The position numbers and the translations under genes are program-made. DNA of 37,537 bases from the NCBI GenBank assembly GCA_030426845.1, contig JAUHXR010000053.1, positions 1 through 37,537 on the forward strand, given 5' to 3'. Positions 5,412 to 37,014 of this stretch are shown here, piece after piece. The DNA is from Polyangia bacterium. Lineage in GTDB: Bacteria; Myxococcota_A; Polyangia; Polyangiales; Sandaracinaceae. Positions within the stretch are counted from its first letter, which is position 1. Each line of letters opens with the position of its first letter. Below the pieces are notes generated by a model. The model did no database searches. It had not been told where the DNA came from and worked only from the letters and a program-made list of their open reading frames with translations.

Positions 5412-6998
<1,587 letters not shown>

Positions 6999-7006
6999 CG
7001 GGCGCA

Positions 7007-7012
7007 ACGCTA
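7007..7012 (-). promoter_or_regulatory. Leaderless -10 candidate for rtcR (TAGCGT)
   Basis: TAGCGT lies 8 nt upstream of the rtcR ATG with no Shine-Dalgarno sequence between. It is only 2 bp from the opposing -10 candidate of the methyltransferase gene, so polymerase binding at the two sites should be mutually exclusive. Confidence 0.45.
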
Positions 7013-7014
7013 AC

Positions 7015-7020
7015 TAACCT
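7015..7020 (+). promoter_or_regulatory. Leaderless -10 candidate for the methyltransferase (TAACCT)
   Basis: TAACCT is followed by 7 nt (CCCCGCC) and the ATG at 7028. There is no purine-rich ribosome-binding site. A weak -35 candidate TTGGCC lies at 6991-6996, 18 bp upstream and inside rtcR. Confidence 0.5.
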
Positions 7021-7027
7021 CCCCGCC

Positions 7028-7762
7028 ATGTTCCACCCCGACGGCCCGAGCCTCCGCGAGCTGACCGAGCAGGCGCTCTCCGGCACCGACGCCGGCTACG
7101 ATCTGCTCGCCGCCAAGTTCGACGTCACGCCGTTCCGAACGCCGGACGCGATCCTCGAGCGCGCGGCCGAGATCACCCGCGCGGGCGGCACCGTCCGACG
7201 GGGGCTCGACCTCTGCTGCGGGACGGGCGCCGGGCTGCGCTGGTTCCGTCCGCTCTGCACCGAGCGTGCGCTCGGCCTCGACCGGAGCCGCGGCATGCTC
7301 GAGGAGGCGGCGCGACGCCTCGCCGACGCGCCCGGCGCCGCGCCGATCACCCTGATGCAGGGCGACGCCCTCGAGACGCCGTTCCGGGACGGGCAGCTCG
7401 GGCTCGTCACCTGCTTCGGCGCGTTCGGCCACATCCTCGAGACGGACGAGCCGCGCTTCGTACGCGAGATCTACCGGATCCTCGAGCCCGGCGGCCGCTT
7501 CGTCTTCGTGACGAGCGAGCGGCCGCCCGTCACCTCCCCCGGCCTCTGGATCGCCAAGGGCTTCAACGCGGTGATGCGGGTGCGCAACGCGCTGCTCAAG
7601 CCCGAGTTCATCATGTACTACCTCACCTTCATGCTCCCGGGGGCGCGCTGGCTCTGCGAGGCGGTCGGGTTCGACGTCGAGGTCAAGAGCGGCGTCTTCG
7701 ACAAGCCCTTCCACCGGGCGAAGCTCGTGATCGCGACCAAGCCGGCCGGCGCGAAGCGATGA
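7028..7762 (+). CDS. Class I SAM-dependent methyltransferase
   Basis: A 244-residue protein with a Rossmann-type methyltransferase core: motif I DLCCGTGAG (61-69), acidic residue of motif II in GLDRS (83-87), GDALETPF (112-119) and the post-core LEPGGRF (152-158). The C-terminal part (YYLTFMLPGARWLCEAVGF) matches the small-molecule methyltransferase branch (Methyltransf_11/25 type). It should transfer a methyl group from S-adenosylmethionine to an unknown acceptor. Its stop overlaps the next ATG as ATGA (7759-7762), so the two products are probably made together. It is divergent from rtcR, but no sigma-54 -24/-12 element is visible in the 29-bp gap, so control by RtcR is not supported by sequence. 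Confidence 0.88.
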   Translation: MFHPDGPSLRELTEQALSGTDAGYDLLAAKFDVTPFRTPDAILERAAEITRAGGTVRRGLDLCCGTGAGLRWFRPLCTERALGLDRSRGMLEEAARRLADAPGAAPITLMQGDALETPFRDGQLGLVTCFGAFGHILETDEPRFVREIYRILEPGGRFVFVTSERPPVTSPGLWIAKGFNAVMRVRNALLKPEFIMYYLTFMLPGARWLCEAVGFDVEVKSGVFDKPFHRAKLVIATKPAGAKR

Positions 7763-31583: not shown

Positions 31584-34340
31584 ATGAAGCGCGCCTGGCT
31601 CCTGTGTGCCGTCCTCCTCGTCGCCTCCGGCGGCACCGTCCTGCTCACCGCCTGCGGCGGCAGCTCGGACACCGAGGGCACCGGCCCCCGGCCGACCTCC
31701 ACGCGCCGGCCGTCGAGCGGCGGCGAAGACGTGGGCCCGCCCGAGGGGAGGCTCGCCCGCGACGTCATCCCGCGGCGCTACTCGCTCAGCCTCGCGGTCG
31801 ACCCGCGCGCCGCGCGCTTCACCGGCGTGGCCGAGATCGACGTCGAGCTGCCGCACCGGATGCGCGACATCTACCTCCACGGGCGCGGCCTCGACGTGGC
31901 CGAGGTCTCGGTCTCCGAGGTCGGCCGCGACGCGACCGACGCCGAGTGGTCGCTCGTCGAGGGCCGCGAGGACGAGGGCCTCGCGCACATCCGGACCGCG
32001 CGCCCCGTGGGGCCGGGCAGCGTCCGCGTCCGCGTCACCTACGGCGCGGCGTTCGATCAGGCCCTCACCGGCCTCTACCGCCTCGAGCACGAGGGCCAGC
32101 GCTACGCCTACACCCAGATGGAGCCGCTCGGCGCGCGGCGCGCGTTCCCCTGCTTCGACGACCCGTCGTTCAAGACGCCCTACGACTTGACCCTCGTGAT
32201 CCACGAGGACGACCGCGCGGTCGCGAACGCGCGGGAGCGCTCCAACGACGCGATGAACGGCCAGCTCCGCCGCGTCCGCTTCGCGACCACCGAGCCGATC
32301 CCGACCTACCTCGTGGCCTTCGCGGTCGGCCCGTTCGACATCGTCGAGGGGCCGCCGGTGCCGGCGAACGACGTGCGCCGTGAGCCGCTCCCGCTCCGTG
32401 GGGTCGCGCCACGCGGGGAGGGCGCCCAGCTCGCGCACGCGCTCGAGCACACCGGGGCGATCCTCACCCAGCTCGAGGGCTACTTCGGCGTCGCCTACCC
32501 GTTCGACAAGCTCGACCTGATCGCGGTGCCGGACTTCGCGGCGGGCGCGATGGAGAACCCGGGCGCGGTGACGTTCCGCAGCCGGCTGCTCCTGCTCTCG
32601 GAGGACGCGCCGCTCTCGCAGCAGCGCGGCTTCGCCTACGTGACGGCCCACGAGCTGGCGCACATGTGGTTCGGCAACCTCGTGACCACCGCGTGGTGGA
32701 ACGACCTCTGGCTCAACGAGGCCTTCGCGACCTGGATGGAGACCCAGACCATCGAGGCGACGTTCCCCGAGATGCAGCCGCAGATCGCGGAGATGGAGGT
32801 CGCGCTCTCGGCGATGGGGGCGGACAGCCTCGCGAGCGCGCGGCGGATCCGCCAGCCGATCGAGAGCGAGCACGACATCCACAACGCCTTCGACTCGATC
32901 ACGTACAGCAAGGGCAACGCGATGCTGGCGATGTTCGAGAGCTACCTGACGCCGGAGGTCTTCCAGCGCGGGGTGCGCGCCTACGTCCGCGCCCACGCGG
33001 AGGGCAACGCGACGGCGAGCGACCTGATCGGCGCGATCTCGGAGGCGGCGGGTCGTGACCTGAGCGGGCCGTTCGAGAGCTTCCTCAACCAGCCGGGCGT
33101 GCCGCTCGTCGAGGTCACGCCGACCTGCGAGGGCGAGACCGGCTCGCTCGCGCTGCGCCAGTCGCGCTACCTCCCGCTCGGCTCACGCGCGGAGCGGCAG
33201 GCGACGTGGCAGATCCCGTTCTGCGCGCGCTACCGCGCGGGCGGCGAGGTCCGGCGCACCTGCACGCTGCTCACCGAGGCGGAGGGCACGATGCCGCTCG
33301 AGGGCGGCTGCGCGGACTGGGTCATGCCCAACGCGGGCGGCGTCGGCTACTACCGCTGGACGCTCCCGGCGTCGGACCTCGAGACGCTCCGGCGGCGCGG
33401 GCTCTCCGAGCTCGGGGTGCGCGAGGCGATGAGCTACGCGGACAGCATCCGGGCGAGCTTCGCGGCCGGCAACACGACCTACGCGGACGCGATGAGCGCG
33501 CTCCGCCCGCTCATCCAGCGCGACGAGCGCGCCCTCGCCACCGCGCCGATGGGGCTCGTGAGCTTCGGGGTCGAGCGCGCGCTCAGCGAGCCGGCGCGGG
33601 TCGAGGCGGCGCGCCGCGCGGCCGGCCGGCTCTACCGCAACCCGACCCGCGCGCTCGGCTGGCGCGCCCGGCGCGGCGAGGACCCGGAGCGGACGCTCTA
33701 CCGGGTGGAGCTGCTCACGTTCCTTGCGCGCGTCGCGCAGGATCGCAGCGTGCGTCGCGACGGCGGAGAGCTCGGCCGCGCCTACCTCGGGCTGCGGAGC
33801 GACAACGAGCTGCACCCCGACGCGGTCGACCCGGATCTCGTGCCCCTCGTCGTGGAGCTCGCGGTGCAGCAGGGCGGCGAGCGCGTGCTCGACCACGTGC
33901 TGGCGAAGATGCGCGAGGCGTCCGACCCGGCGACGCGCTACGCGCTCCTCCAGGGCGCGGCCTCCATCACCGAGCCGGCGCTCCGCGAGCGCGTCCTCGC
34001 GATGACCCTCGAGGATCGCTTCCCGGTCAGCCTGGTCTTCCGCGTCTACATGAGCGCGATGCGCCAGCCCGAGAACATCGAGCCGACCTTCGCGTGGATC
34101 ACCGAGCACTACGACGCGATCGTGGCGCGGATCGGCCCGGCGATGGCCGGCTACCTGCCGTACTCCGGCTCGATGCTCTGCAGCGCGGACGGCGCGGCCC
34201 GGGTGCGGGCGTTCTTCGGCGAGCGGGTGGCCCAGACCGTCGGCGGCCCGCGCAACCTCGAGGCGTCGGTCGAAGAGGTCGAGCTCTGCGCGGCCCGGGT
34301 CGAGCACGCCCGCGAGAGCGTGCAAGCCTACTTCCGCTGA
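31584..34340 (+). CDS. M1-family aminopeptidase lipoprotein
   Basis: A 918-residue M1 zinc aminopeptidase. A lipoprotein signal (MKRAWLLCAVLLVASGGTVL then LTAC, C24) puts it in the envelope, unlike cytosolic PepN. Domain I contains PRRYSLSLAVDPRAARFTG and YTQMEPLGARRAFPCFDDPSFK. The catalytic domain has GAMEN (321-325), HELAH (356-360) and E379 in WLNEAFATW, all intact. The C-terminal 350 residues carry the helical ERAP1-type domain. It should remove N-terminal residues from peptides outside the cytosol, perhaps for predation or scavenging. It is 50 bp after the ABC operon; a TATGCC box 6 nt before the ATG suggests separate expression. Confidence 0.95.
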   Translation: MKRAWLLCAVLLVASGGTVLLTACGGSSDTEGTGPRPTSTRRPSSGGEDVGPPEGRLARDVIPRRYSLSLAVDPRAARFTGVAEIDVELPHRMRDIYLHGRGLDVAEVSVSEVGRDATDAEWSLVEGREDEGLAHIRTARPVGPGSVRVRVTYGAAFDQALTGLYRLEHEGQRYAYTQMEPLGARRAFPCFDDPSFKTPYDLTLVIHEDDRAVANARERSNDAMNGQLRRVRFATTEPIPTYLVAFAVGPFDIVEGPPVPANDVRREPLPLRGVAPRGEGAQLAHALEHTGAILTQLEGYFGVAYPFDKLDLIAVPDFAAGAMENPGAVTFRSRLLLLSEDAPLSQQRGFAYVTAHELAHMWFGNLVTTAWWNDLWLNEAFATWMETQTIEATFPEMQPQIAEMEVALSAMGADSLASARRIRQPIESEHDIHNAFDSITYSKGNAMLAMFESYLTPEVFQRGVRAYVRAHAEGNATASDLIGAISEAAGRDLSGPFESFLNQPGVPLVEVTPTCEGETGSLALRQSRYLPLGSRAERQATWQIPFCARYRAGGEVRRTCTLLTEAEGTMPLEGGCADWVMPNAGGVGYYRWTLPASDLETLRRRGLSELGVREAMSYADSIRASFAAGNTTYADAMSALRPLIQRDERALATAPMGLVSFGVERALSEPARVEAARRAAGRLYRNPTRALGWRARRGEDPERTLYRVELLTFLARVAQDRSVRRDGGELGRAYLGLRSDNELHPDAVDPDLVPLVVELAVQQGGERVLDHVLAKMREASDPATRYALLQGAASITEPALRERVLAMTLEDRFPVSLVFRVYMSAMRQPENIEPTFAWITEHYDAIVARIGPAMAGYLPYSGSMLCSADGAARVRAFFGERVAQTVGGPRNLEASVEEVELCAARVEHARESVQAYFR

Positions 34341-34379: not shown

Positions 34380-34673
34380 TCAGTCGTGCGACGAGCGCTC
34401 GAAGGCGGCCCGCTGCTCGGGGGTCGCCTCGGTCTGGTGCTTCGCCTTCCACTCGTCGTACGGCATGCCGTAGACGATCGTGCGCGCCGCCTCCTTGTCG
34501 AGCGGGTGGCCCCGCTCGGCCGCGGCCTCCGCGTACCAGCGCGACAGGCAATTGCGGCAGAAGCCGGCGAGGTTCATCAGGTCGATGTTCTGCACGTCGG
34601 GGCGCGCGCGCAGGTGCTCGACCAGGCGGCGGAACGCGGCGGCCTCGACCTCGGTCCGGGTGGCGTCGTCCAT
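34380..34673 (-). CDS. DUF1244 family protein
   Basis: A 97-residue protein matching DUF1244 across its length: RPDVQNIDLMNLAGFCRNCLSRWY in the centre (shown here by its two halves VQNIDLMNLAGF and CRNCLSRWY) and ARTIVYGMPYDEWKAKHQ at the end. The pair C-x2-C may bind metal. The family is widespread in proteobacteria and has no established function. It is the last gene of the kinase/PYP-like cluster on this strand, 31 bp after the small repeat-bearing ORF, but may be separately expressed. No clear Shine-Dalgarno sequence or TANNNT box precedes the ATG. Confidence 0.9.
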   Translation of the reverse strand: MDDATRTEVEAAAFRRLVEHLRARPDVQNIDLMNLAGFCRNCLSRWYAEAAAERGHPLDKEAARTIVYGMPYDEWKAKHQTEATPEQRAAFERSSHD

Positions 34674-34704: not shown

Positions 34705-34950
34705 TCAACCCGGCAGCACGCTCAAGAACTGCTCGGCGGTCATCCGCTCCGGGTCCGGGCGGCGTCGCTCCCACGGCACCCGCGCGAGCAGCTCACCCGC
34801 CGGCCGGCGCGCGTCGCGGTCGCTGCACCCCTTCAGCGCCGGGGCCGCCAGCGCGGGACCCGCCACCGCAGGACCCCGGAGCGCAGGACCCCGGAGCGCA
34901 GGACCCCGGAGCGCAGGGCGCGCGGGCGGCTCAGGAGGTCGGCCGTCCAT
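34705..34950 (-). CDS. Small ORF with pentapeptide repeats, uncertain gene
   Basis: An 81-residue frame whose ATG at 34950 overlaps the end of the PYP-V4R gene by 20 bp. The N-terminal third is repeated ALRGP pentapeptide, encoded by a 15-bp tandem repeat. The C-terminal part (DRDARRPAGELLARVPWERR and MTAEQFLSVLPG) looks like ordinary protein sequence. It could be a real small basic protein in the operon or a fortuitous frame in GC-rich DNA. No homology is recognised. Confidence 0.45.
   Translation of the reverse strand: MDGRPPEPPARPALRGPALRGPALRGPAVAGPALAAPALKGCSDRDARRPAGELLARVPWERRRPDPERMTAEQFLSVLPG
34868..34917 (+). repeat. 15-bp tandem repeat (3.3 copies)
   Basis: Three identical copies of GCAGGACCCCGGAGC at 34868-34882, 34883-34897 and 34898-34912, plus a partial copy to 34917. 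On the minus strand it encodes the ALRGP repeats of the small ORF at 34705-34950. Confidence 0.9.
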
Positions 34951-36001
34951 CGGGGGGTCCTGCGAGCCGATCCAGGATGGTGGGGATGTCGGTGCCCTCG
35001 CGCGCGAGGGCGCCCACGGTGTCGCGGCGCGTCATCCCGACGACCAGCATCTCGCAGCGCGCGTGACCCGTCCCCGCGCAGCAGACCTCCTCCACGTGGA
35101 GCCGGCGGGCCGCGAGGTGGGAGAAGACCGCGGCCAGCATCCCCGCGAGGAGGTGGCAGCGGCGCTGGTCGCTCCGCCGCGTGGCGGCCACCAGCGCGCT
35201 CCGCTCGAGCTCGAGCACGATGCCGCCCGCGTCGGCCGAGGCCAGGTCGACGGTGAGGCCGCCCCAGCCCTGCTCCTCGAGGTAGGCCACGAGGCGCTCG
35301 ACCACCTCGCGCATCGGCCGCTCGCGGAGCGACTCCCCCGTCCGCTCGAGGCACTCCGCCTCGAGGTCGACCACCGCGCGCCGGCCCCACTGCAGGCCCC
35401 ACTCGCGACAGAACACCTCCCAGGTCTTGGGGGCGACGCGGTCGCAGGTGCGGAGCAGCGCCTCGAAGAGCTGGAGCGGCGCGCGCACGATCCGTTGCTC
35501 CCGCGAGTCGCGGAGCGCGCCGACGTCCTGCTCCGCCGGGACGAGCTCGCGCTGTCGCGGCGCGGGGAAGCCGGGGTCGAGCCCCTCGCGCGGTGGCCGG
35601 AAGGCGCGCCGGTTGATCAGCAGGTAGTAGCGGCCCTCGCCGAGGCCGAGGAGCTCGACCTCCACGTCCTGGGCGCCGAACTTGAAGTCGAACAGGTACG
35701 CGAAGCGCAGCACCGGCGCGTCGACCCGGCCAGCGACGTAGTCGTCGAAGCGCCCCCGGAACTCCGGCGTGTCGGCGCAGGGGGCGACCTCGCCGAAGAA
35801 CGACCGCCCGATCACGTCGGCCCGGTCGAGCCGGGCCATCCGCGCCTCGGCCGCGTTGTAGCGGAGGATCGTCCCCTCGGCGTCGAGGCAGATGACGCCG
35901 AAGGGCAGCTCGTCCAGCTCCTCGTCGTCCGTCCGGTCGAGCCGGTAGGGATCGATCGTGCGCGAGGCGATCGCCCCCACCTCGGCCGCGGTCACGCTCA
36001 T
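34931..36001 (-). CDS. Photoactive-yellow-protein-like PAS domain fused to a V4R domain
   Basis: A 356-residue protein. Residues 30-132 match photoactive yellow protein (PYP): LPFGVICLDAEGTILRYNAA, then VIGRSFFGEVAPCADTPEFR and FKFGAQDVEVELLG. Y48, E52 and C75 correspond in spacing to PYP Tyr42, Glu46 and the chromophore-binding Cys69; PYP Thr50 and Arg52 are Ala56 and Leu58 here. Residues about 175-325 match a V4R sensor domain with EEVCCAGTGHARCEMLV near the end. It may bind p-coumarate and sense blue light, or have kept the cysteine for another ligand; the sequence alone cannot decide. ATG 36001 overlaps the kinase stop (ATGA, 35998-36001), so the two are coupled. No chromophore-biosynthesis gene is in view. 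Confidence 0.85.
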   Translation of the reverse strand: MSVTAAEVGAIASRTIDPYRLDRTDDEELDELPFGVICLDAEGTILRYNAAEARMARLDRADVIGRSFFGEVAPCADTPEFRGRFDDYVAGRVDAPVLRFAYLFDFKFGAQDVEVELLGLGEGRYYLLINRRAFRPPREGLDPGFPAPRQRELVPAEQDVGALRDSREQRIVRAPLQLFEALLRTCDRVAPKTWEVFCREWGLQWGRRAVVDLEAECLERTGESLRERPMREVVERLVAYLEEQGWGGLTVDLASADAGGIVLELERSALVAATRRSDQRRCHLLAGMLAAVFSHLAARRLHVEEVCCAGTGHARCEMLVVGMTRRDTVGALAREGTDIPTILDRLAGPPDGRPTS

Positions 36002-37014
36002 CGCTCCTCCCCGAAGGCTCGCGCGAACTCGTCGTCGAGCGAGGGGCTGACCGCCTCGGCGGGCCCCGGCTCGGCGGAGGCCGGCGTCGACGCGGCTTGC
36101 GCGGTCGCGATCGGCCGCACCGCGGTGGTCCGAGGGCCGCCGCTCGCCCAGGCCTCGAGCTCCGAGAGCAGCGCCTCGATCGACGGATAGCGCTCCTCGG
36201 GCCGCTTGCGCGTGCCGCGCGCGAGGACCCGGAAGAGCCCGCCGTCCAGCGCGGGCGAGTAGGGCAGCGGCGCGGACTGGATCGCGGCGAAGAGCTCGGA
36301 GAGCGCGCCCCTCGAGAACGGCGCGCGGCCGGTGGCCGCCTCGTAGAGCAGGACGCTGAACGCCCACTGGTCGGCGGCGGGCCCGACCTCTCGCCCGAGG
36401 TCGAGCTGCTCGGGCGCCATGAAATCGGGCGTCCCGACCCAGCCCGCGGTCAGGCGGGGATCGCCCGCGATCCGACGAGCCACGCCGAAGTCGAGCAGCT
36501 TCGCGGCCACCGCGCCCTCCGCCTCGGCCGCGAGGAACACGTTGGCGGGCTTGAGGTCGCGATGCACGACGCCTTGCGCATGCGCGTAGCCGAGCGCGCG
36601 CCCGATGGGCAGCAGCGTGTCCACCGCGGTCGCCGCGCCGAGCCCGTCGCCGATGACGTCGGAGAGCGGCTGCCCCTCGAGCAGCTCCATCACGAGGTAG
36701 GGCCGGTCCTCTGCGTCGTAGCCGAAGTCGTGGATCGCCACGATCGACGGATGCCGCAGGCCGGCCACGGTGGTCGCCTCCGCCTCAAGCCGTCGGGCGA
36801 AGCCCGCGTCCGGGCTGGCGGCGGGGAGCAGCTTCACGGCCACCGGCCGGCGCAGGCGCTCGTCGCGCGCGCGCCAGACCTCGCTCATCCCGCCGCGCCC
36901 GATCGGCGCCTCGAGCCGGTAGCGACCGCCGACCACCTCGCCGACCGCGCGCCGTCCCGAACCGCTCGGCGCCGGCAGCGTCGCGCTCGCCCAGCGGCTG
37001 TCCCCTTCGCGCAC
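35998..37014 (-). CDS. Soluble Ser/Thr protein kinase
   Basis: A 338-residue protein with a Hanks-type kinase domain (about residues 32-295). The signatures are the glycine loop IGRGGMSEV (38-46), ATP lysine K61 in VAVKLL, HRDLKPANV (151-159), DFG (175-177) and GTPDFMAPEQ. All catalytic residues are present. The C-terminal tail (300-338) is short and Ala/Pro-rich with no membrane segment, so unlike many bacterial PknB-like kinases it is soluble. It is the first gene of the cluster; the GTG at 37014 has AGGCGGGG directly before it and TAGAGG 6 nt upstream. Coupling to the PYP-V4R gene suggests that the sensor modulates the kinase or is its substrate. Confidence 0.94.
   Translation of the reverse strand: MREGDSRWASATLPAPSGSGRRAVGEVVGGRYRLEAPIGRGGMSEVWRARDERLRRPVAVKLLPAASPDAGFARRLEAEATTVAGLRHPSIVAIHDFGYDAEDRPYLVMELLEGQPLSDVIGDGLGAATAVDTLLPIGRALGYAHAQGVVHRDLKPANVFLAAEAEGAVAAKLLDFGVARRIAGDPRLTAGWVGTPDFMAPEQLDLGREVGPAADQWAFSVLLYEAATGRAPFSRGALSELFAAIQSAPLPYSPALDGGLFRVLARGTRKRPEERYPSIEALLSELEAWASGGPRTTAVRPIATAQAASTPASAEPGPAEAVSPSLDDEFARAFGEER

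Follow-up and report, generated by a model that had tools for sequence, protein, structure and literature searches.

How photoactive yellow proteins (PYPs), which rank among the most thoroughly studied photoreceptors, relay their signal is called an open question in a 2025 PYP survey (PMC12826048), and the locus analysed here puts that question in a concrete form: is the Ser/Thr kinase gene that lies directly upstream of a PYP-type sensor gene its signalling partner? The window, by which we mean the whole stretch of 37,537 nucleotides that was analysed, comes from a Polyangia bacterium of the Sandaracinaceae (GenBank assembly GCA_030426845.1, contig JAUHXR010000053.1). An initial annotation had proposed that the kinase is translationally coupled to a fusion of PYP and V4R domains, that both proteins form a stoichiometric sensor-kinase pair, and that such a linkage is undescribed.

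Layout of the locus and domains of the receptor

Both reading frames were found on the minus strand, with the kinase (35998–37014, 338 aa, GTG start) followed by the PYP-V4R receptor (34931–36001, 356 aa). The stop of the first gene and the start of the second share the ATGA at 35998–36001, so the proposed coupling is real, and similar junctions occur in relatives. The picture of a two-protein unit is incomplete, as a third gene that had gone unnoticed directly follows PYP-V4R (34705–34950, minus strand, 81 aa, core RRPAGELLARVPWERRRPDPERMTAEQFLSVLPG) and overlaps its stop by 20 bases; the unit is therefore kinase, PYP-V4R and small protein. A DUF1244 gene downstream (34380–34673, minus strand) and a convergent gene for an M1-family aminopeptidase (31584–34340, plus strand) are not regarded as parts of the module.

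Searches for the receptor elsewhere yielded five further PYP-V4R proteins, with 40–46% overall identity, in a set of 57 genomes comprising the window's own and its relatives. In a scan of 84,980 species genomes we found 27 loci, mainly from Myxococcota plus two from Acidobacteriota; these include the five loci just mentioned and, with the window, make up the 28 referred to below.

The PYP domain, a PAS domain, spans residues 21–132 (35606–35941, minus strand). NCBIfam model TIGR02373 matched this region with an E value of 4e-27 and 94.6 bits, short of the curated cut-off of 143.05 bits; because of this shortfall we speak of a PYP-family domain and not of a proven holo-PYP. The model is of the equivalog type and was designed for PYPs of a single domain, and according to PMC9664959 further PYP homologues call for a better profile. 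Alignment by phmmer to solved PYP chains (E 2.5e-21) showed that residue numbers around the pocket are shifted by a constant 6 and agrees with the initial assignment of the pocket residues, Y48, E52 and C75 corresponding to Tyr42, Glu46 and the chromophore-binding Cys69 of PYP. The three residues by which a PYP-type PAS domain is recognised as a PYP are thus all present. The equivalents of Tyr42, Glu46, Ala67 and Cys69 do not vary among the 28 PYP-V4R proteins; in the published PYP family, Glu46 is conserved in 97% and Tyr42 in 91%. The position of Pro68 is occupied by Arg or Lys in ten of the 28, the protein of the window not being one of them. In genomes with PYP-V4R, one or two additional PYPs that lack V4R are often present, and in genomes G032, G037 and G052 (loci L022–L024, L030 and L031) these extra copies keep APC at the site of the chromophore whereas the PYP-V4R copies have ARC. 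An AlphaFold2 model of PYP-V4R, built from 24 homologues, reached a mean pLDDT of 89.7, and its N-terminal half resembles solved PYPs with a Z score of about 17.

The fusion to a V4R domain, also part of the initial proposal, is borne out by a PF02830 match at residues 262–320 (E 1.7e-13, 50.8 bits against a Pfam gathering cut-off of 31). The V4R region as a whole covers approximately residues 170–331 (35009–35494, minus strand), and the C-terminal half of the model superposes on the domains by which MopR, PoxR and DmpR sense phenol, with Z scores of about 17–18. In MopR-type phenol sensors zinc is held by three Cys and one Glu. Residues C282, E305, C308 and C316 align with MopR C155, E178, C181 and C189 and are invariant in 23 aligned V4R sequences, so that the full Cys-Glu-Cys-Cys set of putative zinc ligands is present at the level of sequence. 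The hydroxyl of phenol is anchored in these sensors by a pair of His and Trp. In the sequence alignment, as opposed to a residue-level structural one, no conserved Trp was evident near the expected position, and the ligand may therefore well differ from phenol. The V4R domains of MopR, PoxR and DmpR are moreover fused to AAA+ transcription activators, unlike that of PYP-V4R.

Genes for chromophore synthesis, encoding a tyrosine ammonia-lyase (TAL) and a coumarate-CoA ligase (pCL), have so far not come to light, an outcome that the initial annotation had counted against its own reading. No TAL-type lyase was detected in ten PYP-V4R draft genomes, eight of which are at least 90% complete. Each contains a single PF00221 lyase with the motifs RSHA and KEDHVSMG, and the HL pair of TALs is absent from all ten enzymes; we take the SH selectivity pair with KEDHVSMG to denote a histidase and HL to denote a TAL, and the sole aromatic lyase was rejected as a TAL on these grounds. 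Likewise, no gene scored above the cut-off of TIGR02372, the model for the PYP-activation CoA ligase, and the best-matching pCL candidates, in G000 (C143) and G333, were discarded as they look like ligases of aryl-polyene clusters. By eye, the CoA-ligase matches G000:C143 (L179) and L188 appear to lie in aryl-polyene pigment clusters, with genes for a carrier protein, an acyltransferase and a thioesterase as neighbours. In general, however, few pyp genes have a TAL gene nearby, membership of the published families does not depend on one, and proposed alternative sources of the chromophore include uptake and other lyases. Given these proposals, that rarity and the draft state of the genomes, photoactivity of PYP-V4R is plausible, albeit unproven with no TAL in the ten genomes.

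The kinase and its linkage to the receptor

The kinase matched PF00069 with an E value of 3e-40, and on reading its sequence the motifs GxGGMxEV, VAVK, HRDLKPAN, DFG and APE were all found intact. It thus has the Pkinase domain, catalytic Lys, HRD Asp and DFG of a Hanks-type Ser/Thr kinase. No membrane segment is evident in its sequence and the protein is apparently cytosolic, in line with its initial description as an intact soluble kinase. The genome of the window has at least 151 protein-kinase matches, so the choice among paralogues matters.

The pairing of sensor and kinase proved to be conserved in relatives. All five PYP-V4R genes from the 57 genomes have a Ser/Thr kinase gene immediately upstream on the same strand, and over the whole scan a kinase lies directly upstream in 16 of the 27 loci (17 of 28 once the window is counted). 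In most cases the two genes overlap by 4 bases or are separated by a few, with gaps of up to 50. As a control, loci of the same phylum with a V4R-less PYP were inspected, and a kinase was present within 1.5 kb in only one of 29, a few of these 29 being repeats. When presence or absence of the kinase was mapped on the PYP-V4R tree, three changes were required, compared to 8.3 for shuffled labels. The remaining 11 of the 28 loci have no adjacent kinase, which indicates that the kinase is not obligatory.

A tree that also included the most similar unlinked kinases from the searched genomes placed 13 of 14 linked kinases in one clade (support 95/90), separate from these unlinked kinases and with subclades that match the PYP-V4R tree. 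The exception is the kinase of locus L045, which falls outside the clade and is unrelated to the other linked kinases; its neighbourhood with the receptor is an independent pairing. Three further linked kinases (L046, L048 and L063) are missing from the tree because HGD replaces HRD in their catalytic loop, so that they failed the motif filter; their other motifs are present.

Many linked kinases end, after a variable linker, in a segment SLDALIRxRL. Of 17 linked kinases, 11 fit a pattern made for this segment, as against 0 of 33 background kinases. The window's own kinase has a tail (SLDDEFARAFGEER, 36001–36042, minus strand) that diverges from the segment and does not fit the strict pattern. 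The tail is a candidate docking peptide.

The small third gene

Translation downstream of PYP-V4R in all loci revealed a small protein of 43–81 aa, encoded by an ORF that is often in a shifted frame. As a rule this ORF begins before the PYP-V4R stop, with an overlap that in most cases measures 4 to 20 bases; its exact starts are predicted. The proteins share a terminal motif of approximately PAxxLLxxxxWxGxxxDPxxLxAxxFLxxL and matched no family in Pfam or NCBIfam. With leave-clade-out profiles, the small gene was the top match downstream of, or fused to, V4R in about 24–25 of the 28 loci, and was recovered in L038, L039, L041, L042 and L063, all outside the profile training set. The match in L039 is weak (E 0.005) and that in L061 not significant (E 0.6); L040, L051 and L059 gave no profile match, the last owing to a contig end within the gene. 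Among the 57 genomes, strong matches to the small-protein profile (E < 1e-13) occurred only in the six with PYP-V4R, the next best (E 1e-3) being unconvincing. As the profile includes the members from these six genomes, the informative part of the result is the absence from the others. In six pairs dN was lower than dS. A role of the small protein as a substrate of the kinase is not favoured, as it has no invariant Ser or Thr. In the window, a 15-base tandem repeat of about five copies (34834–34917) lies inside the gene and encodes PALRG-like repeats in the variable N-terminal half of the protein.

The small gene is kept also in loci without a kinase and is a more constant partner of PYP-V4R than the kinase is. 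At the Holophagaceae locus L052, a gene for a putative adenylate/guanylate cyclase (6166–7230 of that locus) begins just a few bases beyond the small gene, on the downstream side, whereas the kinase of the Myxococcota loci sits upstream. The retention of the small gene without a kinase, together with this cyclase, suggests a constant core of receptor and small protein with a changeable output enzyme. In Corallococcus sicarius (L041:4965–5993) the V4R domain lacks its last part and the core of the small protein is fused to it in frame, which would fit either a natural fusion or a gene in decay; in a model of this fusion the small-protein part was placed with too little confidence to name a docking site. 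Both the kinase and the small protein are co-inherited with the receptor, and this co-inheritance can be read from the sequences in the same way as the domains, their intact residues and the coupling of the genes.

A possible signalling module and its relation to known systems

We consider it an even call that the three genes encode a cytosolic module in which PYP-V4R, as a sensor of light and/or phenolics, controls a dedicated kinase. The chain that we infer involves chromophore loading, dimerisation, complex formation, a direction of regulation and a target. The PYP domain would most likely carry p-coumaroyl on Cys75 and detect blue light, and the V4R domain, with its MopR-type zinc site, would probably dimerise and bind a small, possibly phenolic, molecule. 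Having no output domain of its own, PYP-V4R would pass its state by direct contact to the co-translated Ser/Thr kinase, probably through the C-terminal tail of the kinase and/or the small protein, and the response of the kinase would alter the phosphorylation of some target. In its fullest form, which we hold tentatively and rate at a little under an even chance, this is a three-component phototransduction module of Myxococcota, with PYP-V4R integrating blue light and a small molecule, a Ser/Thr kinase dedicated to it and a small, previously unseen protein that couples them.

Its chief competitor is a sensor of chemicals alone, whose V4R domain binds a phenolic or other hydrophobic compound and whose PYP domain, devoid of chromophore in vivo, controls the kinase as a dimerisation domain or, through Cys75, as a redox domain. 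The lack of a TAL in the ten genomes, the likeness of the V4R fold and zinc site to phenol sensors and the Arg or Lys at the Pro68 position in ten members all fit such a sensor; nevertheless, the invariance of Tyr42, Glu46 and Cys69 at 40–60% overall identity would be hard to explain without a chromophore, and a missing TAL loses weight in view of its rarity beside pyp genes and the other sources proposed. On balance we regard this alternative as somewhat unlikely. Quite improbable, in our estimate, is that the small protein is the main target or partner of the receptor, the kinase being one of several interchangeable output enzymes in some lineages. The presence of the small gene with and without a kinase, the putative cyclase of Holophagaceae, the Corallococcus fusion and the unrelated kinase of L045 point in that direction, against which stand the age of the kinase in the group, its single clade with matching topology and the fact that the cyclase is known from one locus. 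This explanation is compatible with the light-sensing module and places the emphasis elsewhere. That the two genes ended up side by side by accident would be conceivable in so kinase-rich a genome, and the kinase of L045 is unrelated to the others, but the frequency of linkage (17 of 28, compared to 1 of 29 where the PYP lacks V4R), the single orthologous clade with a topology matching the receptor tree and the recurrence of 4-base overlaps largely refute it and leave it hardly credible.

The proposed module has partial parallels in known systems. Dohmen et al. 2025 (PMC12826048) report 20 PYP-V4R fusions of the same architecture, an N-terminal PYP with a conserved pocket followed by V4R, and some of their accessions may overlap the loci studied here. 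These fusions are presented there without an apparent relay domain, and no output partner is named in that text, in contrast to the dedicated Ser/Thr kinase and small third gene described here. The PYP neighbours given in the parts of two surveys at hand are histidine kinases, chemoreceptors, GGDEF/EAL proteins, pCL and TAL, with no report there of a Ser/Thr kinase partner or of the small protein, and no further report of a PYP combined with a Ser/Thr kinase was found in the open-access literature. Within that literature, the kinase partner and the third gene are new, as the initial annotation had supposed for the kinase, whereas the PYP-V4R fusion had already been published (PMC12826048).

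A PYP also controls a kinase in Ppr of Rhodospirillum centenum (PMC12826048, PMC9664959). Ppr unites PYP, phytochrome and histidine kinase in one chain with two-component signalling, as opposed to the separate Ser/Thr kinase and the V4R domain, in place of phytochrome, found here. A loose parallel, by description and not by sequence, is the Synechocystis cluster slr0144–slr0152, whose Ser/Thr kinase we take to be slr0152, SpkG. The cluster combines V4R proteins with that kinase and, in contrast to our locus, has no PYP; it also encodes a globin and an Fe-S protein and has been linked to the assembly of photosystem II (PMC13174344, PMC10151467).

The co-inherited Ser/Thr kinase and the constant small partner offer a candidate answer to how PYP relays its signal. 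If it is correct, a PYP would here for the first time be connected to a Ser/Thr phosphorylation pathway, and the small protein would be a dedicated PYP partner that was previously undescribed. All three proteins are small and apparently soluble, which would allow the chain to be reconstituted in vitro, and under control by light it would make a compact optogenetic Ser/Thr kinase. As Myxococcota have been suggested as the origin of PYP (PMC9664959), the module may bear on the beginnings of PYP signalling.
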